From assembly GCF_900107535.1 (NCBI RefSeq), contig NZ_FNRA01000011.1, positions 1-64,000 of the forward strand: DNA of 64,000 nt. Reading direction: 5' to 3'. Made by a program: the position numbers and the translations under genes. The notes under the pieces were generated by a model. That model did not search any database, had not been told where the DNA came from, and saw only the letters and a list, made by a program, of their open reading frames with translations. Origin of the DNA: Pedobacter hartonius (GTDB taxonomy: Bacteria; Bacteroidota; Bacteroidia; Sphingobacteriales; Sphingobacteriaceae). Position 1 is the first letter of the stretch; every line of letters begins with the position of its first letter. Of this stretch, positions 9,324 through 27,147 are shown piece by piece.

Positions 9324-10943
9324 ATGAAATTTTTAACTCATATATTGATTGCCGGATTGATAGCCATTACGGTAACAGGATGTAAAAAACTGGATCTGGA
9401 GCCTACCGACCGCTTCTCTGAAAGTAATTTCTGGACGGTAGATGCTAACGTATATAGTGCCCTGAATAATAACTACGGCCTGATGTATACCAGCATGATG
9501 TTCTTCTACAATGAATCAACCTCTGATAATGCATACAGTACAACAGGCGACTATGCCCTGATCGCCAGTGGCAATGCGAATGCGTCCCAGGCACAGTTCC
9601 TCAATGACTGGAAATATTATTACAGCACGATCAAGTCCTGTAATGTCTTTCTCGCCAACGTTGACCAGAACAAAACACTGCCGGCAGCAACGATCAGCCG
9701 TCTGAAAGCCGAAAATCGATTTATCCGTGCCTTCGCGCATTTTAACCTGACGAAATGGTATGGCGACGTACCTTTGATCGATAAGGACATCACGGCTGAG
9801 GAGGCCAAAACGATTGCACGCAGCCCTAAAGCTACAGTGATCAAATTCGTAACCGATGAACTGGAAGCTGCTGCTGCGGCACTGCCTGCTAAAGAAGCTA
9901 TTCCGGCCAGTGAGAACGGAAGGATCAGCAAAGGAGCTGCGATCGCGCTTGAAGCCCGTGTATTATTATACGAAGGCAACCGCATGGCCGATGTAATCAC
10001 CCTGTGCGAAAGGCTGATCAGGGAAGGCGGTACCAACGGGCAGTACAGCCTGGTGAACAACTATTCTGATCTTTTCAGTAACCCCACTGTGAATAGAACT
10101 AATAATGAGGTGATCCTTTCCCTGCAATATGTGCCTTCGGTACGTACCTGGAGCGAATTTTTTGATTTTGCACCACGCTCTGTGGGCGGTCGTGTAAGTG
10201 GTATGGCCCCAACTCAGGAATTAGTAGACGACTATATCACACTCAATGGCAGAGGAATCAGCGAAACCGGTTCGGGCTATATTGAAACCAACCCTTATAT
10301 CAACCGCGATCCGCGCCTGACAGCTACGGTGGTTTACGATAAATTTAACTGGGTAAGACCAGATGGAACGGTCAAAGTGATCTATATCAAACCAGGTACC
10401 GATCCTGATGCTTCACGCCTGGATGAATACAGTGCAGCCTCACAGGCTTCTTCGCCAACCGGTTATTACTGGCGTAAATATTTTGACCCGATTGCCCTGA
10501 CATCCTTTGCTTCAGGCACTAACCTCCACCTGCTTCGGTATGCAGAAGTGTTGCTGACCTATGCTGAAGCCAAACAATCCCTCGGCCAGCTGGATGAGAC
10601 CGTATGGAACAATACCATCCGCTTATTGCGTCAGCGTGCAGGTTTTACTGATGCTGCCGCCTTAAGTTTTCCGGGAACAGCGAATCTAACCACCATTATC
10701 CACCGTGAACGCAGGTCTGAATTGGCGATGGAAGGTCTGAGGACAGATGATCTCCGCCGCTGGAAAATCGCAGAAACTGTGCTGAACGGCTATGCACATG
10801 GTGCAAAATTTGGTGATCCTGCGATAGATAACGGCTATATCCGTGCACAAAGAAGAACATTTACGGAGAAGGATTACCTTTGGCCAATACCATCTTCAGA
10901 GATAGGGCTCAATGGCAATCTGACACAGAACCGGGGTTACTAA
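9324..10943 (+). CDS. SusD/RagB-family substrate-binding lipoprotein (mannoside locus)
   Basis: The 539-residue protein starts with a lipoprotein signal (LIAITVTGCKKLDLEPTDR), so Cys20 is the expected lipidated residue and the protein sits on the outer-membrane surface. The family pattern is present: LDLEPTDRFSESNFW after the lipobox, TPR-like helices including FIRAFAHFNLTKWYGDVPL, a C-terminal half with LLRYAEVLLTYAEAKQSLGQ, and a terminal RGY. SusD binds glycans and closes over the SusC barrel. Ligand residues cannot be assigned from sequence alone. Its stop is 14 nt from the GH92 start, and the GH92 frame has a spurious in-frame extension into this gene. Confidence 0.9.
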   Translation: MKFLTHILIAGLIAITVTGCKKLDLEPTDRFSESNFWTVDANVYSALNNNYGLMYTSMMFFYNESTSDNAYSTTGDYALIASGNANASQAQFLNDWKYYYSTIKSCNVFLANVDQNKTLPAATISRLKAENRFIRAFAHFNLTKWYGDVPLIDKDITAEEAKTIARSPKATVIKFVTDELEAAAAALPAKEAIPASENGRISKGAAIALEARVLLYEGNRMADVITLCERLIREGGTNGQYSLVNNYSDLFSNPTVNRTNNEVILSLQYVPSVRTWSEFFDFAPRSVGGRVSGMAPTQELVDDYITLNGRGISETGSGYIETNPYINRDPRLTATVVYDKFNWVRPDGTVKVIYIKPGTDPDASRLDEYSAASQASSPTGYYWRKYFDPIALTSFASGTNLHLLRYAEVLLTYAEAKQSLGQLDETVWNNTIRLLRQRAGFTDAAALSFPGTANLTTIIHRERRSELAMEGLRTDDLRRWKIAETVLNGYAHGAKFGDPAIDNGYIRAQRRTFTEKDYLWPIPSSEIGLNGNLTQNRGY

Positions 10944-15592: not shown

Positions 15593-15606
15593 AGGCTTTT
15601 ACTATA

Positions 15607-15626
15607 TTGTATTTCTTGTAATACAA
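15607..15626. repeat. Short perfect inverted repeat between the GH92 gene and the fibre operon
   Basis: TTGTATT (15607-15613) and AATACAA (15620-15626) are perfect complements around a 6-nt loop. The repeat lies 15 nt after the GH92 stop and just before the conserved 42-nt element. It could be a weak terminator or an operator; there is no T tract to favour the former. Confidence 0.35.
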
Positions 15627-15628
15627 AC

Positions 15629-15687
15629 CACTACATGACTTTCATAATTGCGTCTATATTCTATGATCGGCTTAATTAATAATTTTG
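15629..15687 (+). promoter_or_regulatory. Copy A of a 42-nt conserved element plus -7 box, upstream of the fibre operon
   Basis: Bases 15629-15670 match 26087-26128 at 37 of 42 positions; the invariant core includes CTTTCATAATTGCGTCTATA. Nine nt downstream lies TAATTTTG (15680-15687), an exact Bacteroidota -7 box. The second copy has CAATTTTG at the same distance. No normal -33 box is seen at the right spacing, and the element covers that place. This is what an activator-dependent or alternative-sigma promoter would look like. The DUF4402 gene starts 40 nt further on. Confidence 0.6.
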
Positions 15688-15727
15688 ATATGTGAAATCA
15701 AACAAATATCAATTTAATTAAAAGATC

Positions 15728-16246
15728 ATGAAAAAAGTATTCATTTCTATGTTAGTTGCATCAACACTATTTGCTGCTAAATCATTTGCACAAGTTTCTG
15801 CTACCGCTAATGCAGGTGCTGACATTGTGGCACCCATTGCTATTCTCAAAACAGGCGATATGAATTTCGGGATTGTAGCCCGGAGTAATGTCAACGGCTG
15901 GGTTCAATTATCAGCTGCCGGCGTCCGTACCACAACAGGTGGTGCTTTATTACTATCACAAACAGGAACCGTGACCCCAGCGACGTTTGCGGTAACAGGG
16001 GAAGCGGGTTACACCTACGCCATCACCCTCCCGACTTCTGTTACCCTGACTAATACCACTGGTGCTGGTGGTGAAACTATGGTTGTAGAGAATTTTGTAA
16101 GTACTCCTACTGTTGCAGCTGGTGGCGTATTAGTTGCTGGTACCCAAACATTATCGGTAGGTGGCGAACTGGTGATCGCAGGCAACCAGGTATCCGGTAA
16201 CTATTTGGCCGGTACACCATTTACTGTCACTGTAAATTACAATTAA
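15728..16246 (+). CDS. DUF4402 surface subunit, probable major fibre subunit
   Basis: The 172-residue protein has a Sec signal (MKKVFISMLVASTLFAAKSF then AQ) and a beta-rich, Ala/Gly/Thr-rich body typical of DUF4402: DMNFGIVARS near the start, a central GEAGYTYAITLPTSVTLTN segment, and a terminal GTPFTVTVNYN. DUF4402 proteins resemble spore-coat-U/fimbrial subunit domains. Two features suggest a major subunit: it is first in the operon, and a perfect hairpin with a T-rich tail separates it from the chaperone gene, which would raise its output over downstream genes. The other DUF4402 protein, two genes on, has a similar layout. Assignment to the domain is firm; the fibre role is inferred from neighbours. 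Confidence 0.75.
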   Translation: MKKVFISMLVASTLFAAKSFAQVSATANAGADIVAPIAILKTGDMNFGIVARSNVNGWVQLSAAGVRTTTGGALLLSQTGTVTPATFAVTGEAGYTYAITLPTSVTLTNTTGAGGETMVVENFVSTPTVAAGGVLVAGTQTLSVGGELVIAGNQVSGNYLAGTPFTVTVNYN

Positions 16247-16260
16247 TTGAAATTCATCTG

Positions 16261-16295
16261 ATAAGAGACATGGCATCGCTATGTCTCTTATTTTT
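16261..16295 (+). terminator. Hairpin attenuator/terminator after the first DUF4402 gene
   Basis: ATAAGAGACAT (16261-16271) pairs perfectly with ATGTCTCTTAT (16281-16291) around a 9-nt loop, followed by TTTTAATT. It lies 14 nt after the stop codon and 27 nt before the chaperone start. It should reduce read-through and/or protect the upstream message. Confidence 0.7.
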
Positions 16296-16318
16296 AATTC
16301 AAACACAAATTTGATATT

Positions 16319-17197
16319 ATGACTATTTCAGCCGCTTCTGTAACAGGCTTACTGCCAAATGTTATTCACGCTATACTTATTTTTTTTTGGTTAGTTACCT
16401 TATCATTATGTATGCCCGAAAATGCAAAAGCCCAGGGAAATTTATTGATTCTTCCCAAGCGGATTGTCTTTGACGGTAGCCGGAGGACCCAGGACCTGAA
16501 CCTGGCCAACACCGGAAAAGATACAGCAACGTACATTATTTCTATGATTCAGATCAGGATGAAAGAAGACGGCACTTTTGAAAATATTACCCAGCCAGAT
16601 TCGGGGCAATATTTTGCAGATAAAAGTTTACGTATTTTCCCCCGTTCTGTAACCCTTGCGCCCAGAGAATCCCAAACCGTAAAAATACAGGTGATACAGG
16701 CAGCGAACCTTGGTCCTGGCGAATACCGTTCCCATATCTACTTCAGGGCCGTTCCACGCACAACCGCTGCTGGAGAAAAGCCGGTTGTAACAGACTCCGC
16801 CAATCTATCAGTAAAACTGGTGCCTGTTTTTGGCATCAGTATACCGGCGATCATCCGGGTTGGAGAAAACTCATCAGGAACAGCTATCTCAGATGTGTCG
16901 GTTGACCTGGTGAATGTCCAGAAACCGCAGCTGAACATGTGCCTGAACCGCATCGGTAATATGTCTGTTTACGGAGACTTGTATGTCAATTATATATCAC
17001 TAACGGGGAAAAAGATCCGGGTTGGCGCTGTTAATGGAATAGCTGTTTATACACCATTACCGCGCAGAAAAGTAACCATGAAATTAGATATCCTGCCAGG
17101 GGTTGATTATCATAGCGGAAAACTGGAAATACAATACGCATTGCCGACAGCAGCTAAAATAGTCATGCTATCTGAAAAGGAATTACCACTGCAATAA
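16319..17197 (+). CDS. PapD-like periplasmic pilus chaperone
   Basis: The 292-residue protein has a long signal region (cleavage probably after NAKAQ, near residue 39) and then the first Ig-like domain of PapD-type chaperones: LLILPKRIVFDGSRRTQDLN, the Q-D-L-N-L-A-N-T-G strand, RIFPRSVTLAPRESQTVKIQ, and a GEYRSHIYFRAVP strand that would be the subunit-binding G1 edge. The second domain is more divergent. Such chaperones hold subunits in the periplasm by donor-strand complementation and deliver them to the outer-membrane usher. It is flanked by two DUF4402 genes and followed by an usher-like gene, which fits. The fold is clear; the partners are inferred from adjacency. Confidence 0.75.
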   Translation: MTISAASVTGLLPNVIHAILIFFWLVTLSLCMPENAKAQGNLLILPKRIVFDGSRRTQDLNLANTGKDTATYIISMIQIRMKEDGTFENITQPDSGQYFADKSLRIFPRSVTLAPRESQTVKIQVIQAANLGPGEYRSHIYFRAVPRTTAAGEKPVVTDSANLSVKLVPVFGISIPAIIRVGENSSGTAISDVSVDLVNVQKPQLNMCLNRIGNMSVYGDLYVNYISLTGKKIRVGAVNGIAVYTPLPRRKVTMKLDILPGVDYHSGKLEIQYALPTAAKIVMLSEKELPLQ

Positions 17198-17242
17198 CCA
17201 ATGGCAAATCCGGTTACCTGCATTACAATAAATAAAATCGTC

Positions 17243-17728
17243 ATGACAGCTACTCAAATAATAACCCGGATTATACCACTGTTATCGGCAGGTTTTTTTT
17301 TGATGCTAACCGTTTCACCGGCGAAGGCCCAATTCACTACTACTGTTATTCAACAGTTAAATTTTGGTACCTTTTGTCCGGTTGGCGCAAGCGGTTCCAT
17401 TACCATTTCACCAGCGGGCGTACGTACCGTAGCCGGCGACATCATTACTATTAATCAAAATAGTGCACTATATATGCAGGCTATTGTCGAAGTAGAAGCT
17501 CCTATAGGCAGCAGATTAACCATTGTAAATTCCAATACGCAATTAAGGGGAAGTAACGGTGGAGCGATGACACTTCATATCAATAGCACCGACCCTGTTT
17601 CTTCTGTAATTACAACAACATCGAAAACCAATATTAGCATTGGCGGCACGCTGATGATCTCAAATATGACGGCGAACCCTTCTGGAAAATACAGTGGTTC
17701 ATTTGATGTCACCTTTATAATAGAATAG
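17243..17728 (+). CDS. DUF4402 protein, probable minor or tip subunit
   Basis: From the ATG at 17243 the protein has 161 residues with a clean Sec signal (IIPLLSAGFFLMLTVSPAKA then Q). An earlier ATG at 17201, 3 nt after the chaperone stop, would add 14 residues and make the signal unusually long; it remains possible. The mature part has the DUF4402 pattern: LNFGTFCPVGASGSITISPA, GVRTVAGDIITINQ, and a terminal KYSGSFDVTFIIE. It differs from the first DUF4402 protein in sequence and lies after the chaperone, as minor or tip subunits often do in chaperone-usher operons. That role is inference. Confidence 0.7.
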   Translation: MTATQIITRIIPLLSAGFFLMLTVSPAKAQFTTTVIQQLNFGTFCPVGASGSITISPAGVRTVAGDIITINQNSALYMQAIVEVEAPIGSRLTIVNSNTQLRGSNGGAMTLHINSTDPVSSVITTTSKTNISIGGTLMISNMTANPSGKYSGSFDVTFIIE

Positions 17729-17746
17729 GCTTAGCCGGTTGTTCCC

Positions 17747-20368
17747 ATGAAAAATCAAACGGTATACCGGATATGGAAATACAGTCTGTATAGACACAGT
17801 CCTAAAATATGCCGGATAGCTATTGTTGTGATGTTATTAACTTTTCATCCCTTATCATCTGTAGGTCAGGTAAAACCGGATGATGAAGATATTTCTGTTT
17901 CGCTGGATATGCCAGGTTTAGGAACTGCAGATATTCCGGCCATTATCAGGGGTAAGGACAGCTACCTATCGGTAACAGATTTTTTCACCTTTTTAAAAAT
18001 CAATGTTATCCCATCGGCCAGTCAAGACTCCGTATCAGGGTTTCTGCTCGATCCCCGCGACATCTATCTGATAGACAGGCTCCATCACCTGATTTGGTAT
18101 CAGGGAAAACGAAATAATATTGCTATAGATGATTTGATCAGCACGGCTACTACGCTTTATCTGAAATCAGATTATTTCGGTAAAATCTTTGGCTTAAACA
18201 GTCTGTTCAATTTCCGCAGTCTCTCCGTTAGTATTGATACTAAGCTCGATCTGCCGGTTTTTCGGGAGATAAGGCAAAAACTGACGCGCGATCATATTAA
18301 CCATACCAGCGGGATTGTAAAAGTGGACTCTACCGTTGGCCGCAGCTATTCGGGTTTTAAAATGGGGATGGCAGATTGGTCGGTGGTCTCTACCCAACAA
18401 CGGGGTGCTAAATATACCGGGCTTAATCTGTCTCTTGGCGCCGCGCTGGCCGGCGGAGAAGCAGATGTTTTCTTAAATTACAATAATACCCAGCCATTTA
18501 CTGTCCGTAACCAGTTTTACATGTGGCGTTTTGTTGACAATAACAATCCACTCTTCCGGCAGTTTATAGCCGGTAAAATAGCACCACAGACTATAGCATC
18601 CATCTACGGGCCGGTAACAGGTATACAACTTACCAACAGATCGTCTATTAACAGGAATGCTTTCGGCACTTATAAGTTAAGCGATATAACAGAACCCGGG
18701 TGGAAAGTTGAACTTTATGTTAATAATGAATTAGTTGATTATCAACAGGCAGATGCCTCTGGCTTTTTCTCTTTTGATGTACCTATTGTTTACGGTAACA
18801 CGTTAATAGACCTCAGGTTTTATGGGCCCTGGGGGGAGGAACGCTCACAAAGACGAAATATAAATATCCCGTTTAATTTCCTTCCTGAAAAAGAATTTGA
18901 ATATACGTTGTATGCGGGGATAGTGGATAATGGCTCTAACCATAGTTATGCAAGGGGTAATTTAAACTACGGTCTTACCAGGAAAATAACCATTGGCGGC
19001 GGGATGGAATATTTCTCCGCTATCCCATCCCGCAAAGAAACACCCTTTTTGAATACTTCATTTAGGCTGACATCCAATTTATTGTTATATAGTGAATATG
19101 CTTATGGTGTAAGAACCAAGGGGATTCTTAATTATCGGCTTTCCTCAGACCTGGAATTGGAACTGAATTATATCCGTTATCATCAAGGTCAGCAAGCTGT
19201 ATTGTTTAATTATAACGAGGAAAGGAAAGCTATAATCAACTTTCCCATAAGAGGCAGAAACTTTACCTTGTTTTCAAGGCTTACCTTAGATCAGGTATTT
19301 TTGCCATCTGCACAATTTACTAATGCTGAACTACTGTTTTCTGGTGTGATTGCCGGTATAAACACGAACCTGACCACATTCAGTAGGTTAAGCGGAGAGA
19401 ATGCAGCCCTCACCTACAGCATTTTATCACAGACATACCGTTTGCCGCAACGGCTGCTCTTTACTCCGAAAGTACAATATGAATATGAAACGAAAAAAGT
19501 TATCACTACCAAATTTGAAATAGAAAGACCGATACTGAACTGTGGTTTTATCAAATTATCCTTTGAAAGAAACTTTCGCTCCAATAGTTACACTACCGGC
19601 ATAGGTTTGCGTTATGATTTTTCATTCGCAAGAACGGCCTTTGCGGCATCCCATAACAACCAAAGCGGATTCACCCTAACCCAATCCGCGACAGGAAGTT
19701 TATTATATGATCAGGCCAGCCACTATCTTACCGCCAATAATAACAGTAATGTAGGAAAGGCAGGTTTTACGGTTATTGCCTATCTTGATCTCAATGGAAA
19801 TGGTGTAAAGGATCCGGCTGAACCAAAAGCGGCCGGGCTTTCCCTGCGGATGAATGGGGGGATGATAAAATATAATGAAAAGGACACACTCATCCGGATT
19901 ACCAACCTGGAAGCCTTCAGGACATATACCTTATCGCTTAATGCAAATGGCTTTGATAATCTTACCTGGCAGTTGAAAAAGCCTGTAATCAGTATAACAG
20001 CAGAACCCAACCAATTCAGGAAGATAGAGATACCGGTTACCGTGGCCGCTGAAGTTTCAGGTATGGTATATGTGAAAAATAATAATGAGCGGCAGGGCCT
20101 GGGGAAAATCAGAGTGAACTTTTATGATCAGCAGGCGCAGCTGATTAAACAGGTACTGAGCGAAAGTGATGGTTATTTCAGTTATTTGGGCTTAGTTGCC
20201 GGCTCTTATACAGTTAGCATTGACACGACTCAATTACAGCACCTGAAACTGACCGCATCACCTGCAAATTTACCGGTAACTATTCGGCGGAGCATCGATG
20301 GTGATGTAGTCGATGGATTGGAATTCATACTTAGCACCATACCAAATGACTTTCAAAAGTCTCCGTAA
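17747..20368 (+). CDS. Outer-membrane usher-like protein with C-terminal SdrD-B-like and Cna-B-like domains
   Basis: The 873-residue protein has a signal region (cleavage near SSVGQ, residue about 42). Its N-terminal domain has DSYLSVTDFFTFLKIN and TTLYLKSDYFGKIFG, like the periplasmic N-domains of ushers. A long beta-barrel-like region contains the usher motif TEPGWKVELYVNNELVDYQQ followed by ASGFFSFDVPIVYG, the fold that precedes the plug in FimD/PapC. The C-terminal part has AYLDLNGNGVKDPAEPK (SdrD-B-like) and a second regulatory-like domain with SDGYFSYLGLVAGSYTVSID. It would secrete and assemble DUF4402 subunits across the outer membrane. It is about the same length as classical ushers but diverges strongly from them. 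It ends the operon 15728-20368. Confidence 0.65.
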   Translation: MKNQTVYRIWKYSLYRHSPKICRIAIVVMLLTFHPLSSVGQVKPDDEDISVSLDMPGLGTADIPAIIRGKDSYLSVTDFFTFLKINVIPSASQDSVSGFLLDPRDIYLIDRLHHLIWYQGKRNNIAIDDLISTATTLYLKSDYFGKIFGLNSLFNFRSLSVSIDTKLDLPVFREIRQKLTRDHINHTSGIVKVDSTVGRSYSGFKMGMADWSVVSTQQRGAKYTGLNLSLGAALAGGEADVFLNYNNTQPFTVRNQFYMWRFVDNNNPLFRQFIAGKIAPQTIASIYGPVTGIQLTNRSSINRNAFGTYKLSDITEPGWKVELYVNNELVDYQQADASGFFSFDVPIVYGNTLIDLRFYGPWGEERSQRRNINIPFNFLPEKEFEYTLYAGIVDNGSNHSYARGNLNYGLTRKITIGGGMEYFSAIPSRKETPFLNTSFRLTSNLLLYSEYAYGVRTKGILNYRLSSDLELELNYIRYHQGQQAVLFNYNEERKAIINFPIRGRNFTLFSRLTLDQVFLPSAQFTNAELLFSGVIAGINTNLTTFSRLSGENAALTYSILSQTYRLPQRLLFTPKVQYEYETKKVITTKFEIERPILNCGFIKLSFERNFRSNSYTTGIGLRYDFSFARTAFAASHNNQSGFTLTQSATGSLLYDQASHYLTANNNSNVGKAGFTVIAYLDLNGNGVKDPAEPKAAGLSLRMNGGMIKYNEKDTLIRITNLEAFRTYTLSLNANGFDNLTWQLKKPVISITAEPNQFRKIEIPVTVAAEVSGMVYVKNNNERQGLGKIRVNFYDQQAQLIKQVLSESDGYFSYLGLVAGSYTVSIDTTQLQHLKLTASPANLPVTIRRSIDGDVVDGLEFILSTIPNDFQKSP

Positions 20369-20457
20369 TGCTGATAATAGAGCAAATAGGAATAATATTC
20401 ACTAAAATAATTGCGGCTACCACTAATAATACTTAGTTTTAATACGACCTAACCAAA

Positions 20458-20481
20458 TGAACGTTAAAAGCATAACGTTCA
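20458..20481. repeat. Perfect 9-bp inverted repeat upstream of the PAS kinase gene
   Basis: TGAACGTTA (20458-20466) and TAACGTTCA (20473-20481) are perfect complements around a 6-nt loop, ending 22 nt before the kinase ATG. There is no T tract, so an operator or leader hairpin is more likely than a terminator. AACGTT is itself palindromic, so two half-sites for a dimeric regulator are possible. Confidence 0.5.
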
Positions 20482-20503
20482 TAAAGCAGCATCACCGGTA
20501 TAT

Positions 20504-23500
20504 ATGGCACAAATCATTGACCCCGGCGATTCCGGCAGCGACACTACCGCTAACCAAATTATCAGTAATGATGTTACTTTCAGAAAGCTGATCGAGAATA
20601 GTTTTTCCGGTATTACTTTATTAGATATAGATCTTCAGACAATTTACCGCAGCCCGTCAGCTGAGCGGATTGTTGGCTGGAGTACAGCAGACCGGATGAA
20701 AAAAACAACCGAGGAACTAACACATCCTTCCGACAGGGAAATGGTTAAACAGTTGCTAAAGGATGTCCTTATTAGTCCCGGTATTCCTAAAATATGCACT
20801 TTTCAGTCAAAACACTTTAAAGGGCATTTTATCTGGCTGCAGTGCTCATTTACTAATATGCTTCATGAGCCGGATGTTAATGCCATCGTCTGCAATTTTC
20901 TGGATGTTACGGAATATAAGCTGGGCCAGGAAAAAGTTGTGGAAGGTGAACGTTTTACGAAAAACATTACAGATAATGTGCCGGCGATGATTGCTTACTG
21001 GACGGCAGACTTGCATTGTTTGTTTGCCAATAAAGCATTATTGGAGTGGTTTGAAAAAACTCCTCAGGAGATGCAGGGTATTCATAAGCAGGATTTGATA
21101 AAAGATGAGTATTTAAAATATGAGTATCACATTCAAAATGTACTGGAAGGCAGGCCCCAAAGCTTTGAACGTCCTTTTTTTAAAGCTAACGGTAAAATGA
21201 TCTATACGCATACTGAGTATGTGCCGGATATCAGGGACGGTAAAGTGAAGGGCTTTTACTCGCTGATTTATGATTACAGCGAAGTCAGGTCAGCCGGCCT
21301 GGAGGTTTTGAAAAAGACAGCCCAGATTGAAGATCTGTTGGAAAATATTACCGATGGCTTTATTGCGCTGGATGAAAACAGATGCTTTACCTATGCCAAC
21401 GGTCATATTGGCAAAATGTTTGGAAAGGAACCCGGATCTTTGATTGGCCATCCTATTTGGACATTATTCCCTGAGGCCGTAGGGTCAGCTACCTACCAGG
21501 CCATTGAAACCGCCTATTCTGAAAAGAAATACATTTGTAATGAAGATTATTATCTGCCACTAAACTTGTGGCAGGAAAACAGGGTATATCCTTCCGGGGA
21601 TGGACTTTCTATATTCATCCGGGACATCTCGGAAAGAAAAAATGAAGAAATGCAAAAGGCGCTGCTATCTGCCATGAGCCTGATTTTTAAGGGGGATGCC
21701 GGATTAAATGATAGCCTCAGCAAGGTACTGGAACAATTGGTGAATATGGGTAATTTCAATATAGCCGAGGCCTGGCTGACTGGAGTAGATAAAGGCAGGA
21801 TCAGTAAGGTGGCCCAATATTCAAGAGAAGATGAAACGGCTGTTTTCTTTAATGAAAGCGCTGATATTAAAACCTTTGCGAAGGGCGCCGGTTTACCCGG
21901 TATGACCTGGCAAACCCAAACCATACAGTTTTGGCCTGACATTCAAGAAAAAAGAAGCCTTGTACGCATAACTTCCGCAAAAAAAGCCGGTTTGAAGTCC
22001 GCCTACGGCCTGCCGCTACTTTCTAACGGAGAATTAATTGGTGTCCTGGTGCTTGGCTTAACAACGGGTGAAAAACAACGAGGCATGTCGGACATGGTAA
22101 TGGCGCATATTGGTTCCCATCTGGGTGCTGAAATTAAGCGCAAACAACTGGAGCAGGAACTGAACCAGGTATTCCGGTTTACACCCGATATTCTTTGTAT
22201 AGCCAATACCGATGGGTATTTTAAAAAGGTGAACCCTGCCATGAGTATTTTACTTGGATACAGCGAGGAAGAATTGTTGTCTAAACCTTATATGGATATG
22301 GTACATCTGTTGGATAAAGAGAATACCATAACCGAACTACAAAATATTATTAATGGCAGCCCCACTTACTATATCGAGAACCGTTACCTCACCAAATCAG
22401 GAAAGGTCAGATGGCTGGCCTGGACCACTACCGGTGCTTCGGAACAGGGAACTTTATATTGCTCTGCCAAAGATATTACAGATAAAAAAGAGATGGAAGC
22501 GTTGCTGCATAAAGCAACTACTCTGGCACGTATCGGCGGATGGGAAATTGACCTGATTAAAGAAACTGTTTACTGGTCTGCGATGACTAAAGAGATCCAT
22601 GAGGTGCCGGAAGATTTTGAGCCGGATCTTGAAACAGGCGTCAATTTTTATAAGGAAGGAGAAAGTAGAATTTTGATCAGTCGGCATGCTTCAGAAGCGA
22701 TCACTAAAGGTATATCATGGGATCTGGAACTGCAATTAGTGACAGCCCGGGGGAAAACCAAATGGGTACGGGTCATTGGCGAGCCTGAATTTGCGGCAGA
22801 CAAGTGTATACGGATAGTTGGTAGCTTCCAGGATATTGATGCGCTGAAGAAAGCTGAGATTGCCGCTAAAGAAACGCTTGAAGAAAGAAATACGATCCTC
22901 GAAAGTATAGGAGACGCTTTTTTTGCAGTGGATAAAAACTGGACTTTCACTTATTGGAACAGCAGCGCTGAGCAGGTTTTAGGAAAATCAAAAGAGCAAA
23001 TGATGGATTATTGTTTATGGGATGTATTTAACGATTCAATTGAATCAATATCGTATAAAAAATATCACGAAGCACTTGAAATTAATCAACCGGTACATTT
23101 TGAAGATCATTATGCGCCTTTAAATAAATGGTACGAAATCAGCGCTTATCCTACCGGCAATGGTCTGTCGGTCTATTTCAAAGACACTACGGATCGTAAA
23201 ATGTCTGAAAATAGTTTAAAGGAACTGAATGAGAGCCTTCAAAAACACACTAAAGAACTAGCCATTTCCAATGCGGAGCTGGAACAATTTGCTTATGTTG
23301 CCTCTCACGACCTACAAGAGCCTTTACGCATGGTAACCAGTTTTCTGACTCAACTGGAACAAAAATATGGTGATATTGTAGATGCTAAAGGCAAACAGTA
23401 CATCCACTTTGCTGTCGATGGGGCCAAGCGGATGCGGCAGATCATCCTGGATCTGCTGGAGTTTTCAAGAGTAGGGAGATCTGAAGACACGATGGAAGAA

Positions 23501-23944
23501 GTAAATATCAATAAAGTGGTTACGGATATTCTAGCCTTATACCGCAAGCAGATACAAGAGCAGGGCGCCCGGATCGTGTTTGAGAGTTTACCTGCTTTAA
23601 GATCCTTTAGAGTGCCTATCCGCCAGGTATTTCAAAACCTCATCAGTAACGCGCTTAAATATCAGCAAAAAGACATTACACCATTGATCAGTATCTCCTG
23701 TGAGGATAGCGGTAATAACTGGAAGTTTGCGGTTAAGGATAATGGTATTGGTATCGATGCTGAATATTTTGATAAAATATTTATCATATTTCAGCGACTG
23801 CACAACAAGGACGAATACTCCGGCACAGGGATGGGTTTGGCAGTCACCAAAAAAATAATAGAGAACCTTGGCGGAAGAATATGGGTGGAGTCTGAAGAAG
23901 GTAAGGGCAGCACATTCTATTTTACCATTTTAAAACATAACTAA
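20504..23944 (+). CDS. Multi-PAS/GAF sensor histidine kinase
   Basis: The 1146-residue protein has no obvious signal peptide or membrane segment and is probably cytoplasmic. In order I read six PAS-like units (about 25-145, 150-265, 270-385, 555-665, 670-790, 795-905) with one GAF domain (about 395-545) between the third and fourth. Then follow a HisKA domain with phospho-acceptor His935 in YVASHDLQEPLRMV and a HATPase_c domain (NLISNALKYQ, DNGIGID, GTGMGLAVTKKI). The DLQEPLR type is common in phytochrome-like kinases that signal to Rcp1-like response regulators. Its stop overlaps the start of just such a regulator (TAATG), which makes that the obvious partner. The signal is unknown. Confidence 0.85.
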   Translation: MAQIIDPGDSGSDTTANQIISNDVTFRKLIENSFSGITLLDIDLQTIYRSPSAERIVGWSTADRMKKTTEELTHPSDREMVKQLLKDVLISPGIPKICTFQSKHFKGHFIWLQCSFTNMLHEPDVNAIVCNFLDVTEYKLGQEKVVEGERFTKNITDNVPAMIAYWTADLHCLFANKALLEWFEKTPQEMQGIHKQDLIKDEYLKYEYHIQNVLEGRPQSFERPFFKANGKMIYTHTEYVPDIRDGKVKGFYSLIYDYSEVRSAGLEVLKKTAQIEDLLENITDGFIALDENRCFTYANGHIGKMFGKEPGSLIGHPIWTLFPEAVGSATYQAIETAYSEKKYICNEDYYLPLNLWQENRVYPSGDGLSIFIRDISERKNEEMQKALLSAMSLIFKGDAGLNDSLSKVLEQLVNMGNFNIAEAWLTGVDKGRISKVAQYSREDETAVFFNESADIKTFAKGAGLPGMTWQTQTIQFWPDIQEKRSLVRITSAKKAGLKSAYGLPLLSNGELIGVLVLGLTTGEKQRGMSDMVMAHIGSHLGAEIKRKQLEQELNQVFRFTPDILCIANTDGYFKKVNPAMSILLGYSEEELLSKPYMDMVHLLDKENTITELQNIINGSPTYYIENRYLTKSGKVRWLAWTTTGASEQGTLYCSAKDITDKKEMEALLHKATTLARIGGWEIDLIKETVYWSAMTKEIHEVPEDFEPDLETGVNFYKEGESRILISRHASEAITKGISWDLELQLVTARGKTKWVRVIGEPEFAADKCIRIVGSFQDIDALKKAEIAAKETLEERNTILESIGDAFFAVDKNWTFTYWNSSAEQVLGKSKEQMMDYCLWDVFNDSIESISYKKYHEALEINQPVHFEDHYAPLNKWYEISAYPTGNGLSVYFKDTTDRKMSENSLKELNESLQKHTKELAISNAELEQFAYVASHDLQEPLRMVTSFLTQLEQKYGDIVDAKGKQYIHFAVDGAKRMRQIILDLLEFSRVGRSEDTMEEVNINKVVTDILALYRKQIQEQGARIVFESLPALRSFRVPIRQVFQNLISNALKYQQKDITPLISISCEDSGNNWKFAVKDNGIGIDAEYFDKIFIIFQRLHNKDEYSGTGMGLAVTKKIIENLGGRIWVESEEGKGSTFYFTILKHN

Positions 23945-24366
23945 TGAATTCAATCCATATTTTACTGGTAGAAGATAATGAAGGCGATATTTTACTGACA
24001 ACTGATGCCCTGGAAGAAAGTAAGATCATTAATAGGGTGACTGTTCTGCGGGACGGTAAAGCCGCAATTGACTTTTTTGTTACGCTGAATAACCGTGATG
24101 ACAGACCTGATCTGATATTACTGGACATTAATCTGCCAAAAAAAAGCGGGCATGAAGTATTGCAATTCATCAAAAAGAACGAGCAATACAACCAGATTCC
24201 GGTGATCATGCTCACTACCTCCTCGTCCGAACGGGATATATTGTCGGCTTATAAACATTATGCCAATTGTTATATTACCAAACCCATCGATGTTTCGGAG
24301 TTTATGACAGCAATAGCCAAAATACAGGACTTCTGGATCAATATTGTTTCCATTCCTCAAAATTAA
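23944..24366 (+). CDS. Single-domain response regulator (Rcp1-like REC)
   Basis: The 140-residue protein is a bare REC domain: acidic pocket in LLVEDNEGDILLTTDAL, phospho-acceptor Asp61 in DLILLDINLPKKSGHEVL, the Thr/Ser of IPVIMLTTSSSERD, and Lys in YITKPIDVSEF. There is no output domain, so it acts as a phosphate shuttle or sink, or by protein contact. The ATG overlaps the kinase stop by one base (TAATG), which implies translational coupling. The next gene starts 3 nt downstream. Together this suggests the order kinase, shuttle, second kinase, DNA-binding regulator, a possible phosphorelay. Confidence 0.88.
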   Translation: MNSIHILLVEDNEGDILLTTDALEESKIINRVTVLRDGKAAIDFFVTLNNRDDRPDLILLDINLPKKSGHEVLQFIKKNEQYNQIPVIMLTTSSSERDILSAYKHYANCYITKPIDVSEFMTAIAKIQDFWINIVSIPQN

Positions 24367-24369
24367 ATC

Positions 24370-25461
24370 ATGAACACAGATAGAAGCGATTATCGGATCT
24401 TAGTTGTGGAAGATAATCCTGGGGATTTTGCCCTGGTGGAGGATTTTATATTTGAACAAATTGAAGCACCGGTGATTGTTCAGGCAAAAACGTTTAAGAC
24501 GGCCAAAGAAATTCTGACAAAAAAGCGAAACGATTATACTACTGTTCTGCTGGATCTTTCCCTGTCCGACCATGCCGGTGAACCGCTGATCCATGAAATT
24601 GTGGAATTATGCGGGGACATCCCTGTCATTGTGCTGACGGGGTATACTGATTTTGCGTTCGGGGTAAAGTCGCTTTCCCTGGGCGTGTCAGATTATTTAT
24701 TAAAGGAAGATCTCACCGCCACGTCTTTGTATAAAAGCATGGTTTACAGTTCAGAGCGCAAAAAGATTATTTCGGCACTTGAAACATCCGAACAGGATGT
24801 CAGAAATTTTGCCAACCAGTTGAATAATGCGCTGGAAGCAGAACGCTCACGTATTGCGCGTGAAATTCACGATGAATTCGGACAACAATTATCGGGGCTT
24901 AAAATGTCCTTGTCGTCCTTAAAAAAATCAAAAGGTGTTGGTCATGACATAGAAAAACTGATCGATGTGCTGATTGTTGACGTCAATACCAGTATTGCGT
25001 CCGTCCGGCAAATTGCTAATGAATTAAGGCCTGTGTTAATAGACAAGCTTGGCTTATTTGCGGCGATAGAATGGCTGGTGAATGAATTTGAAAACAAAAA
25101 CAGGGTGAAATCCCAGCTTTATAAGGATACTGACTGGTATGGTATTGATGAAAAACTTGAAATAAATATTTATAGAATTTGCCAGGAGGCACTGACCAAT
25201 ATTGCTAAACATGCGAAAGCAACACTGGTGAAAATCAGATTAGAGAATCGGGTTGACCAATTATCGGTAACCATCTCAGATGATGGCCGGGGCATCAAAT
25301 CGAGCACATTACATAACCCGCTTTCAATGGGCCTGCTAAATATGAAAGAGCGCGCCAACTTGATTGGTGCAGCATTAAATATCAGCAGTTCATCAGATAG
25401 CGGAACGCTAATTGAACTTATTGTAAATAAAAATGGCCAGAAAAATATTAATAGCAGATGA
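24370..25461 (+). CDS. REC - HisKA_3 hybrid kinase (NarX/DesK-type catalytic core with N-terminal receiver)
   Basis: The 363-residue cytoplasmic protein has a REC domain at about 9-125 (Asp62 in VLLDLSLSDHAG), then a dimerisation/phosphotransfer domain with His167 in IAREIHDEFGQQLSGLKMSL, and a HATPase_c domain with CQEALTNIAKHAKAT, SDDGRGI and GLLNMKERANLIGA. HisKA_3 kinases phosphorylate NarL/LuxR-type regulators, and such a gene overlaps its 3' end by 29 nt. The receiver in front would let another kinase control this one. Its REC domain closely resembles that of the gene at 26248, sharing patterns such as VKSLSxGxSDYLLK and YKSxxYSxERKK, which points to duplication. Confidence 0.85.
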   Translation: MNTDRSDYRILVVEDNPGDFALVEDFIFEQIEAPVIVQAKTFKTAKEILTKKRNDYTTVLLDLSLSDHAGEPLIHEIVELCGDIPVIVLTGYTDFAFGVKSLSLGVSDYLLKEDLTATSLYKSMVYSSERKKIISALETSEQDVRNFANQLNNALEAERSRIAREIHDEFGQQLSGLKMSLSSLKKSKGVGHDIEKLIDVLIVDVNTSIASVRQIANELRPVLIDKLGLFAAIEWLVNEFENKNRVKSQLYKDTDWYGIDEKLEINIYRICQEALTNIAKHAKATLVKIRLENRVDQLSVTISDDGRGIKSSTLHNPLSMGLLNMKERANLIGAALNISSSSDSGTLIELIVNKNGQKNINSR

Positions 25462-26065
25462 TCACTCCGCCATCAGGATCGGGGTTAAGCAAATCTGTAC
25501 CGGCGAATTTCCGGCTGTTTTATTTGGAGAAGCCATTAACTATGCAGATGTCTTTCAAAAATTAAAACAGAACGAATGGGATATTCTGATACTGGACATT
25601 GATCTGCCAGGCAGAAATGGACTGGAGATACTCAAGCAGATAAAGGCAGAAAAATTGAAAATACCAGTATTGATGTTCAGCTTTCATAGTGAAGAACAAA
25701 TTGCCCTGAGAGCAATGAAGCTGGGCGCTGCCGGCTACCTTTCAAAAGATGTGGCTGACATGGAACTGGTCAAAGCCATCAATCAAATTATGGCCGGTAA
25801 AAAGTATGTATCTCAATCGTTGTCCGAAAAACTTCTGTCCCTGCTGGATGACAATTCTGCTAAGGAGCCACATGAATATTTATCCGAGCGGGAATATCAA
25901 ACACTGCTGCTGATCGCATCAGGCAAGACGGTTTCTGAAATCGCTGGCATACTTTGCCTGAGTACACCTACTATTAGTACTTACAGAGCCCGCATTCTCG
26001 AAAAAATGAAACTCAAAAACAATGCTGAGCTAACCACTTATGCCATTACGCAGAAGCTGGTATAA
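25433..26065 (+). CDS. NarL/LuxR-family response regulator
   Basis: The 210-residue protein has a REC domain (ILIADDHSAIRIGVKQIC; Asp55 in ILDIDLPGRNGLEIL; Lys in AAGYLSKDVADMELV) and a C-terminal LuxR helix-turn-helix (LSEREYQTLLLIASGKTVSE, then LCLSTPTISTYRARILEKMK). It overlaps the preceding HisKA_3 kinase gene by 29 nt, the usual pairing for this regulator class. It is the only DNA-binding protein in the 20504-27147 cluster, and therefore the best candidate for binding the conserved 42-nt element found 22 nt after its stop and upstream of the fibre operon; that link is inference. Confidence 0.88.
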   Translation: MARKILIADDHSAIRIGVKQICTGEFPAVLFGEAINYADVFQKLKQNEWDILILDIDLPGRNGLEILKQIKAEKLKIPVLMFSFHSEEQIALRAMKLGAAGYLSKDVADMELVKAINQIMAGKKYVSQSLSEKLLSLLDDNSAKEPHEYLSEREYQTLLLIASGKTVSEIAGILCLSTPTISTYRARILEKMKLKNNAELTTYAITQKLV

Positions 26066-26086
26066 TCTTTTTTCTGTCAATCAAAA

Positions 26087-26145
26087 CACTACAGAACTTT
26101 CATAATTGCGTCTATATTTTAGGAACGGATGATTTAGCAATTTTG
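26087..26145 (+). promoter_or_regulatory. Copy B of the 42-nt conserved element plus -7-like box
   Basis: Bases 26087-26128 match the element at 15629-15670 at 37 of 42 positions. CAATTTTG (26138-26145) lies exactly 9 nt after the element, as TAATTTTG does in copy A; the similarity weakens but continues to a shared GATCATGAAAA at the first ATG (26165). The element lies just after the LuxR-type regulator gene and upstream of the REC-PAS gene. Confidence 0.6.
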
Positions 26146-26164
26146 ACTTGTTAAACCGCAGATC

Positions 26165-26281
26165 ATGAAAACTCCATTAACACTGATTCTGAATAATAAT
26201 GGCAGTTTATTAAATCCGGCGTCATCAAAACGTATAAGTTTAGATATATGGAAACCGATAGCAAAGCATTTGAAATTTTAA
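26165..26281 (+). CDS. Possible 38-residue leader ORF ahead of the REC-PAS gene
   Basis: The ATG at 26165 sits in the same GATCATGAAAA context as the DUF4402 start downstream of copy A of the conserved element. The frame gives MKTPLTLILNNNGSLLNPAS and ends out of frame inside the start of the REC-PAS gene, overlapping it by 34 nt. There is no recognisable family. It may be a leader peptide, the remnant of a gene whose body has been lost, or chance. Confidence 0.25.
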   Translation: MKTPLTLILNNNGSLLNPASSKRISLDIWKPIAKHLKF

Positions 26282-27147
26282 TTATCGAAGATAATCCTGG
26301 AGATTTAATTCTGGCAGAGGAGTTTTTAACAGAGCAAAAGGTGGCATTTAAACTCACCCAGGCAAGGACCTTCAGGGAAGCGCGACAAATACTTTTAGCC
26401 GGAATAGCCGGATTTGATGTGATCCTGTTGGATCTTTCACTGCCCGACAAAATGGGTTTACCGTTGATACAGGAAATGATAGCAATAAGTTTCTCTATAC
26501 CCATCATTGTTTTGACGGGCTTTGCGGATATCTCCTTTAGTGTAAAATCACTTTCCATGGGTATTTCCGATTATCTTTTAAAAGACGATCTAAGTTCATC
26601 TATGCTTTACAAAAGCATTATATATAGCATCGAACGTAAAAAATCCATACTGGCCCTGGAGGCATCTGAAAAAAAATATAGTGAATTATTCAATTTAATT
26701 CCATTACCTACGTATGTTCTTGAGTTGGATTCCTCGCAGTTTCTGGATGTCAATGAAGCGTTCCTGATAAGTTATGGCTATAGCAGGGCAGAAATTTTGT
26801 CAATGAATTTAGATGCAATCTTGCCACCGGAAGAAAAAAATAACCATTCAGGCAAACTTAGGCATATTAAAAAAAGCCGGGAAATCATCTACGTTGATAT
26901 TCAGAGTAATCTTATAAAATATAAAGAAAAAAATGCTGAGATGGCCTTTGCAAATGATATTACGGATCGCTTAAATTACATCAGTTCAATGGAGTATCAA
27001 AACGAAAAACTCCGGGCAAAATCCTGGACTCAATCACATGTTTTCAGGGCTCCTTTATCCAGAATTATAGGGCTTATTCCGATTTTCAGACTTAAGGACT
27101 ATTGCCACAATAAGTTCATGTTTCTAAAGGCCAATGGTCAGAAATAG
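26248..27147 (+). pseudogene. REC-PAS protein with truncated histidine-kinase end
   Basis: The 299-residue product has a REC domain (about 9-125; Asp62 in ILLDLSLPDKMG), a PAS domain (about 138-240), and the start of a HisKA domain with His264 in SWTQSHVFRAPLSRIIGLI. It then runs into unrelated residues and stops 35 codons after the His; no HATPase domain exists in any frame before the next gene at 27191. The SHxxRAPLxRIxGL H-box is typical of full-length Sphingobacteriaceae PAS kinases, so the catalytic half appears deleted. It could still be phosphorylated on Asp62 or serve as a His substrate. The REC domain is a near relative of that at 24370. The frame itself is intact, so a working short form is possible. 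Confidence 0.55.

Follow-up and report, generated by a model that had tools for sequence, protein, structure and literature searches.

A conserved promoter unit before a fibre operon and a signalling gene in Pedobacter hartonius, and its candidate NarL/LuxR-type regulator

The Locus and Its Two Copies of a Promoter Unit

The stretch of Pedobacter hartonius DNA analysed in this study (the window; 64,000 nucleotides (nt), contig NZ_FNRA01000011.1, positions 1–64,000) contains a putative fibre operon, which is followed by a PAS-kinase cluster including a gene for a NarL/LuxR-type response regulator (hereafter the regulator). Two copies of a conserved promoter unit were found, copy 1 before the fibre operon and copy 2 past the regulator gene, before a gene encoding a receiver-PAS protein (Table 1). 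Judged from comparative sequence analysis, both copies are most likely activator-dependent promoters of this regulator, which would tie the fibre operon and the PAS-kinase cluster together.

Table 1. Features of the fibre and kinase locus (positions in the window)
Feature	Position	Strand	Evidence or remark
Copy 1 of the promoter unit, before the fibre operon	15616–15689	+	Model R1, E 1.9e-13, own genome
Imperfect dyad TGTAA-N9-CTACA, proposed primary regulator site, copy 1	15617–15635	+	Columns 2–20
CTTTCATAATTGCGTCTATA, proposed second part of the regulator site, copy 1, extending to the -33 position	15639–15658	+	Columns 24–43
-7 box TAATTTTG, copy 1	15680–15687	+	TTTG position across hits
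DUF4402 protein, probable major fibre subunit (role inferred)	15728–16246	+	Pfam PF14352, E 4e-25
PapD-like periplasmic chaperone	16319–17197	+	Pfam PapD_N 0.0024 (below curated cut-off); NCBIfam TcfA-like 0.0011 (far below cut-off)
Second DUF4402 protein	17201–17728	+	Pfam, E 3.7e-15
Large usher-like protein, 873 amino acids (aa)	17747–20368	+	Usher role inferred from size and operon position
PAS/GAF sensor histidine kinase	20504–23944	+	Pfam PAS_4, HisKA, HATPase_c, GAF_2
Single-domain response regulator	23944–24366	+	Pfam Response_reg
Receiver + HisKA_3 kinase	24370–25461	+	Pfam HisKA_3 3.2e-13, Response_reg
NarL/LuxR-type response regulator, proposed binder of both sites	25433–26065	+	Pfam GerE 1.4e-15, Response_reg
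Copy 2 of the promoter unit	26074–26147	+	Model R1, E 2.1e-14; comparable position in orthologous clusters
-7 box CAATTTTG, copy 2	26138–26145	+	TTTG position across hits, as for copy 1
38-aa open reading frame (ORF) directly past copy 2	26165–26281	+	Position equals that of a 71–79-aa cysteine-rich protein in several relatives
Receiver-PAS protein, next gene past copy 2	26248–27147	+	Pfam Response_reg 1.4e-14; PAS_9 8.4e-5 (below cut-off)

By the criteria for chaperone-usher systems, the DUF4402 subunits are clear, the PapD_N match lies below its cut-off and no usher family was matched; Pfam and NCBIfam scans of the 873-aa protein gave only weak Pfam matches below the cut-off. Homologues of this usher-like gene are present in 16 of 145 genomes of the genus, including its own. 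Among the nine proteins of the locus that were scanned, a helix-turn-helix match was obtained for the regulator only, and Pfam detected no sigma factor. The receiver + HisKA_3 kinase is the probable partner of the regulator. Judging by position, the 38-aa ORF is possibly a remnant of the small cysteine-rich protein of several relatives. A homologue of the receiver-PAS gene was found downstream of the regulator gene in all seven Mucilaginibacter loci. A terminator scan gave no site on the plus strand between the usher-like gene and the PAS/GAF kinase gene, so that read-through from copy 1 is possible, but the scan says little because it found 11 sites compared to 11.0 in shuffled sequences. The same scan recorded a hairpin of 15 pairs with a T-rich tail at 16260–16292, in the gap that separates the first pilin gene from the chaperone gene; it could allow the pilin to be expressed more strongly than the assembly genes.

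The initial annotation had described a near-identical element of 42 nt at 15629–15670 and 26087–26128. Direct comparison showed the pair to be identical at 37 of 42 positions, as claimed, with a longest identical run of 23 nt, and a -7-like box does follow each element after exactly 9 nt. The pair is real but the unit is larger, beginning upstream of the earlier limits, at 15616 and 26074, since the left half of a dyad (TGT) falls outside them. Copy 2 starts 8 nt past the stop codon of the regulator gene. The shared GATCATGAAAA to which the similarity was said to run on does not belong to the unit: GATCATGAAAA is the start-codon context of two different ORFs, the pilin gene at 15728 and the 38-aa ORF at 26165, whose distances from the box differ.

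The only exact 20-mers repeated on one strand of the window were those within the two copies. A BLAST search with 15600–15740 against the own genome returned the second copy with an E value of 5.9e-14 (77% identity over 95 nt), the next matches having E 0.00216. The core 20-mer occurred twice in the window, compared to 0.01 expected by chance; when up to three mismatches were allowed, the 5.19-Mb genome contained two exact matches and two with three mismatches, compared to one match for the reversed control. Both by this search and by model R1 (see below), the two copies in the window are the only strong ones in the genome.

The unit consists of 43 conserved columns and 21 unconserved columns, followed at constant distance by a -7 box of the sigma-A type. 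The conserved columns comprise an imperfect dyad, TGTNR-N9-YNACA, followed by TTTCATAATT and GTCTATA. Among 42 distinct hits, picked by a matrix spanning all 74 columns, the mean pairwise identity was 0.68 in columns 1–43, 0.31 in columns 44–64 and 0.72 in columns 65–72, compared to 0.28–0.32 in the flanks; the spacer is free in sequence and fixed in length. The dyad half-sites were conserved as TGT in 38 and ACA in 40 of these hits, and the second block as TTCAT in 34 and CTA in 37. When hits were picked on columns 1–43 alone, 50 distinct hits were obtained, compared to one in a reversed-sequence control. TTTG stood at column 69 in 32 of the 50, a count somewhat inflated because the set includes 20 training sites of the matrix, one overlap with an opposite-strand dyad (L227) and loci fetched with R1; no other single column held TTTG in more than three hits. 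This scarcity of shifted boxes is not accounted for by training and R1 fetching. Placement of the hits was promoter-like: of 47 hits above a higher score, five lay within long ORFs (83% for 1000 random positions), and in 38 cases an ORF of 50 aa or more began within 160 nt (44% for random positions).

According to the accessible text of PMC9723704, the sigma-A -7 box of Flavobacterium psychrophilum is TAnnTTTG and is located at -12 to -5. The box of copy 1 matches this pattern exactly, while CAnnTTTG stands in copy 2 and in all 10 Mucilaginibacter sites of the alignment. By analogy with that placement, transcription is predicted to start near 15692 and 26150. Relative to these starts, the dyad would be centred near -66, TTTCATAATT would occupy -52 to -43, and GTCTATA would occupy -40 to -34, ending where a -33 box would begin. 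In agreement with the earlier reading that a -33 box is absent and the element covers its position, no recognisable -33 TTG was found, and the long conserved block stands there instead.

Conservation in Relatives and Co-occurrence with the Regulator

No site was found near the usher-like gene in 15 relatives. The exact 20-mer, with up to three mismatches allowed, matched in 28 of 59 genomes, much like the reversed control; this search is uninformative because the site diverges between species. Without the regulator as an anchor, the site would have seemed unique to its own genome. Regulator orthologues with 78–80% identity (E ≤ 1e-40) were found in three other genomes of the 145 (G016, G099, and G151), and orthologues with 73–86% identity in seven Mucilaginibacter records (L082–L088), in all of which the unit starts within about 10 nt of the regulator stop codon. 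A DNA search of the three regulator-bearing relatives with 26050–26200 gave one weak match (E 0.0038), in G099 and away from the regulator. In G016, a short repeat series (like GGGAAAAGGGCTTTGCGTAAC) was seen to separate the regulator gene from the site (L078, about 10290–10541).

Ten Mucilaginibacter sites could be aligned without gaps over 74 columns, 29 of them invariant. A sequence-only model, R1, was built from these ten sites, that is, from a genus other than that of the window, and was searched against the 145 genomes of the window's own genus, none of which contains an R1 training site. In the own genome, the copies in the window were the top matches (55.8 bits for copy 2 and 52.7 bits for copy 1), and the third match had E 0.18. 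Matches above 22 bits were limited to G000, G016, G099, and G151 (two each) and G130 and G127 (one each), the next one being in G005 (21.6 bits). The largest number of sites in a single genome was seven (G413).

Within the window's genus, a site (R1, E ≤ 1e-3) was present in 4 of 4 regulator-bearing genomes compared to 3 of 141 others (G130, G127, and G005). Within Mucilaginibacter, with a regulator cut-off of E ≤ 1e-45, the corresponding counts were 13 of 13 and 3 of 136 (G169, G477, and G380). Pooled over both genera, 17 of 17 genomes with the regulator carried the site compared to 6 of 277 without it (Fisher p 6e-23). Seven of the 13 Mucilaginibacter genomes, recognised by identical sites, are training genomes of R1; when these were removed, the counts were 10 of 10 and 6 of 277 (p 9e-15). 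Both p values are too small because genomes within a genus are related. The 14 other usher-positive genomes of the 16, which are without the regulator, had no R1 match above 18.6 bits. Of 400 genomes sampled across the order, 16, spanning 4 of 22 genera, carried the regulator (E ≤ 1e-45). A genome of a third genus (G418, regulator 51% identical) had a partial match to columns 1–29 (E 0.0088), located 7 nt past the last matched codon.

On contig C11 of G099, a 24-bit match (columns 1–46, E 1.6e-4) precedes a pilin-chaperone gene pair homologous to that of the window, encoding a DUF4402 protein (E 1.3e-28) followed by a PapD-like chaperone, and the regulator gene is on a different contig, C8. 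This arrangement is the strongest sign that the site may act in trans on fibre genes. Together with the co-occurrence of site and regulator, it supports well the tie between the fibre genes and the PAS-kinase cluster that had been proposed from the two copies.

Proposed Mode of Action and Alternative Explanations

Computation yielded the site itself, the fixed phase between it and the box, a promoter-like placement, conservation in more than one genus and the joint occurrence of site and regulator. From these we infer binding by the regulator, activation rather than repression, and a phosphorelay from the adjacent kinases. In the proposed mechanism, the phosphorylated regulator would bind the dyad at about -66 as well as TTTCATAATT/GTCTATA next to it (about -52 to -34), and would bring sigma-A RNA polymerase to a -7 box lacking a -33 counterpart. 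The fibre operon would then be transcribed from copy 1, possibly together with the downstream kinase genes through read-through, and the receiver-PAS gene from copy 2.

Several observations weigh against this explanation. The dyad is imperfect and the second half of the element has no clear dyad. The dyad spans 19 bp, compared to the 18-bp inverted repeat TGTAAGN6CTTACA given for UvrY in the available part of PMC4682653. The best NCBIfam model for the regulator, UvrY/SirA/GacA, scored 151.8 bits against a cut-off of 280. The site lies 73 nt (G099), 149 nt (G151) and about 560 nt (G016) past the regulator gene, compared to 8 nt here, and in a fourth genus (G231, regulator 44% identical) no site was found at E ≤ 0.05. 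TTTG was not at column 69 in 18 of the 50 hits, the matrix behind the sets of 42, 50, and 47 hits was trained on 20 sites that it then recovers, and many loci in these sets were originally fetched with R1, whose columns include the box. Genomes of a single genus are not independent observations, and the co-occurrence fits any factor that is inherited with the cluster, whether this regulator or another. Finally, the regulator was not detected in six genomes that carry the site (G130, G127, G477, G380, G169, and G005).

These six genomes are also what speaks for another DNA-binding protein, encoded elsewhere, that would bind the element while the LuxR-type gene only travels with the targets, and co-occurrence alone does not reach the identity of the binder. 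The state of the six genomes bears on this. G127 is 87% complete, G477 92%, and G380 96% in about 600 contigs; G169 is 100% complete and has one partial match, and the match in G005 (E 7.3e-4) is possibly due to chance. In G130 and G127, no regulator match was obtained at E ≤ 1e-25 when all candidates were scored. G130 nevertheless retains traces of the gene order (L192, 9326–9700): past the site come a match to pilin residues 1–31 and, 1 nt beyond it, matches to regulator residues 161–210 in two frames. This is probably a relic of the gene order in the window whose intervening part was lost in a large deletion. Since, in addition, site and regulator go together in two genera, with a weak sign of this in a third, and the regulator is the sole helix-turn-helix protein among those scanned at the locus, we consider a different binder unlikely.

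The initial annotation had left the choice between a single transcription factor and an alternative sigma factor. The conservation of the site across genera, the box in fixed phase and the regulator co-occurrence favour a factor. An extracytoplasmic function (ECF)-type sigma factor reading the element as its own -33/-7 promoter would fit the missing -33 box and the fixed distance to the -7 box. However, the -7 box fits the sigma-A pattern TAnnTTTG, mostly in the form CAnnTTTG, and the ECF-type motif of F. psychrophilum has a CGT box, as far as the accessible text of PMC9723704 goes. A -33 element would be far shorter than the upstream block of 43 columns, the 21 columns in between are unconserved, and none of the nine cluster proteins scanned is a sigma factor, so that this explanation is very improbable.

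The two copies stand as direct repeats on either side of the fibre genes and kinase genes, and a run of 23 nt is identical in both, as could result from a functionless dispersed repeat or a recent duplication, for instance repeats flanking an inserted block of 10.4 kb. For a plain repeat, many scattered or coding copies had been expected earlier; just two strong copies exist in the genome, and few hits across the loci fall in long ORFs. Besides, Mucilaginibacter carries the unit in other settings, with the spacer diverged and its length kept, and the ORF starts past 38 of the 47 hits are far from the random value. One copy may have originated by duplication, but absence of function hardly comes into question. 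A structured RNA leader or other cis-acting RNA element, to which conserved non-coding sequence close to start codons might point, is exceedingly improbable: an Rfam search of the window at gathering thresholds gave no match, and the element should not be transcribed from that promoter because it is located upstream of the -7 box.

Relation to Known Systems and Possible Exchange of Downstream Genes

With regulation by the LuxR-type protein as the preferred explanation, the two copies appear on computational grounds to be part of a genuine small regulon, of a kind of system that is already known. A literature search on Pedobacter and Mucilaginibacter regulons, DUF4402, fimbriae and motif strings, mostly at title level, found no prior description of this regulon. 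NarL-family regulators control fimbriae in other bacteria, as FimZ does in Salmonella and BvgA in Bordetella. The locus resembles these systems in combining a NarL-family regulator with fibre genes, but differs from them in being a Bacteroidota operon with DUF4402 subunits, a different site and a different regulator.

The best sequence match of the regulator among solved structures was NarL (1a04, E 4e-29). BarA-UvrY, GacS-GacA and SirA systems are similar in having a NarL-family regulator and, in the available text on UvrY, a dyad with TGT...ACA outer half-sites. In the available part of PMC4682653, the UvrY inverted repeat is described together with promoter-proximal crosslinking. The unit differs from this in that a second conserved block adjoins the dyad and that the dyad is predicted near -66, compared to around -180 for UvrY; the likely targets here are surface and signalling genes. 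The element may work like a GacA-type site, and membership of UvrY/SirA/GacA is not assigned; the score lies below the equivalog cut-off and the repeat is not of the 18-bp form. Compared to the Bacteroidota sigma-A promoters described in the accessible text of PMC9723704, the unit has a -7 box of similar pattern near the predicted start of a transcription unit, with the first base of the box mostly C and the -33 TTG replaced by the long conserved block.

The genes past the Mucilaginibacter sites include 71–79-aa cysteine-rich proteins and lipoprotein-like proteins. The former, with a pattern like YCxNxxC...CxxC, were found directly past the sites in L083, L084, L086–L088, L218, L219, L233, L235, L237, and L239, whereas the protein is shortened in L082 and absent from L085; neither of the two that were scanned had a Pfam match. 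Secreted proteins past the sites in L216, L229, L232, and L225 have a common stretch like IWLKDxYLKDSLDLR, and the one in L225 (from G380, in which the regulator was not detected) has a type IX secretion system sorting tail (Por_Secre_tail, 9.7e-8). A YceI-like label given by eye to three secreted proteins was dropped, as the one scanned (L078) had no Pfam match.

Tentatively, this could be a GacA-like phosphorelay of Sphingobacteriaceae with a small dedicated regulon, in which the regulator and the promoter architecture are kept and the output is exchanged between lineages. The exchanged outputs would then conceivably be DUF4402 fibres in P. hartonius and G099, and lipoprotein-like secreted or small cysteine-rich proteins in Mucilaginibacter. 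If this is true, the retention of one switch alongside changing outputs would make the system a clear example of regulon rewiring. To our knowledge, few regulator-site pairs have been defined in Bacteroidota outside gut species. With a precise site, a candidate regulator and likely targets readable from the sequence, control of the surface fibres becomes directly testable.

The site may extend beyond the family, because R1, when searched against 73 more distant loci, gave one weak match (15.4 bits, E 0.02) near a regulator gene in a Verrucomicrobiota locus (L117). The motif there, at 10743–10784, is similar and lies about 130 nt past a gene for a 48%-identical regulator and before a receiver-like gene. 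A search for GacA-like dyads up to 500 bp from the regulator gene, in 39 of the 73 distant loci (none from Bacteroidota), gave seven hits over all spacings of 4–13; three of these were downstream at a spacing of 8 or 9 (two in L110 and one in L117), which is not clearly above chance. The two dyads in L110, which carries a Geobacter homologue, are of the form TGTAR-N8-YTACA and lie within 500 bp past the regulator gene.

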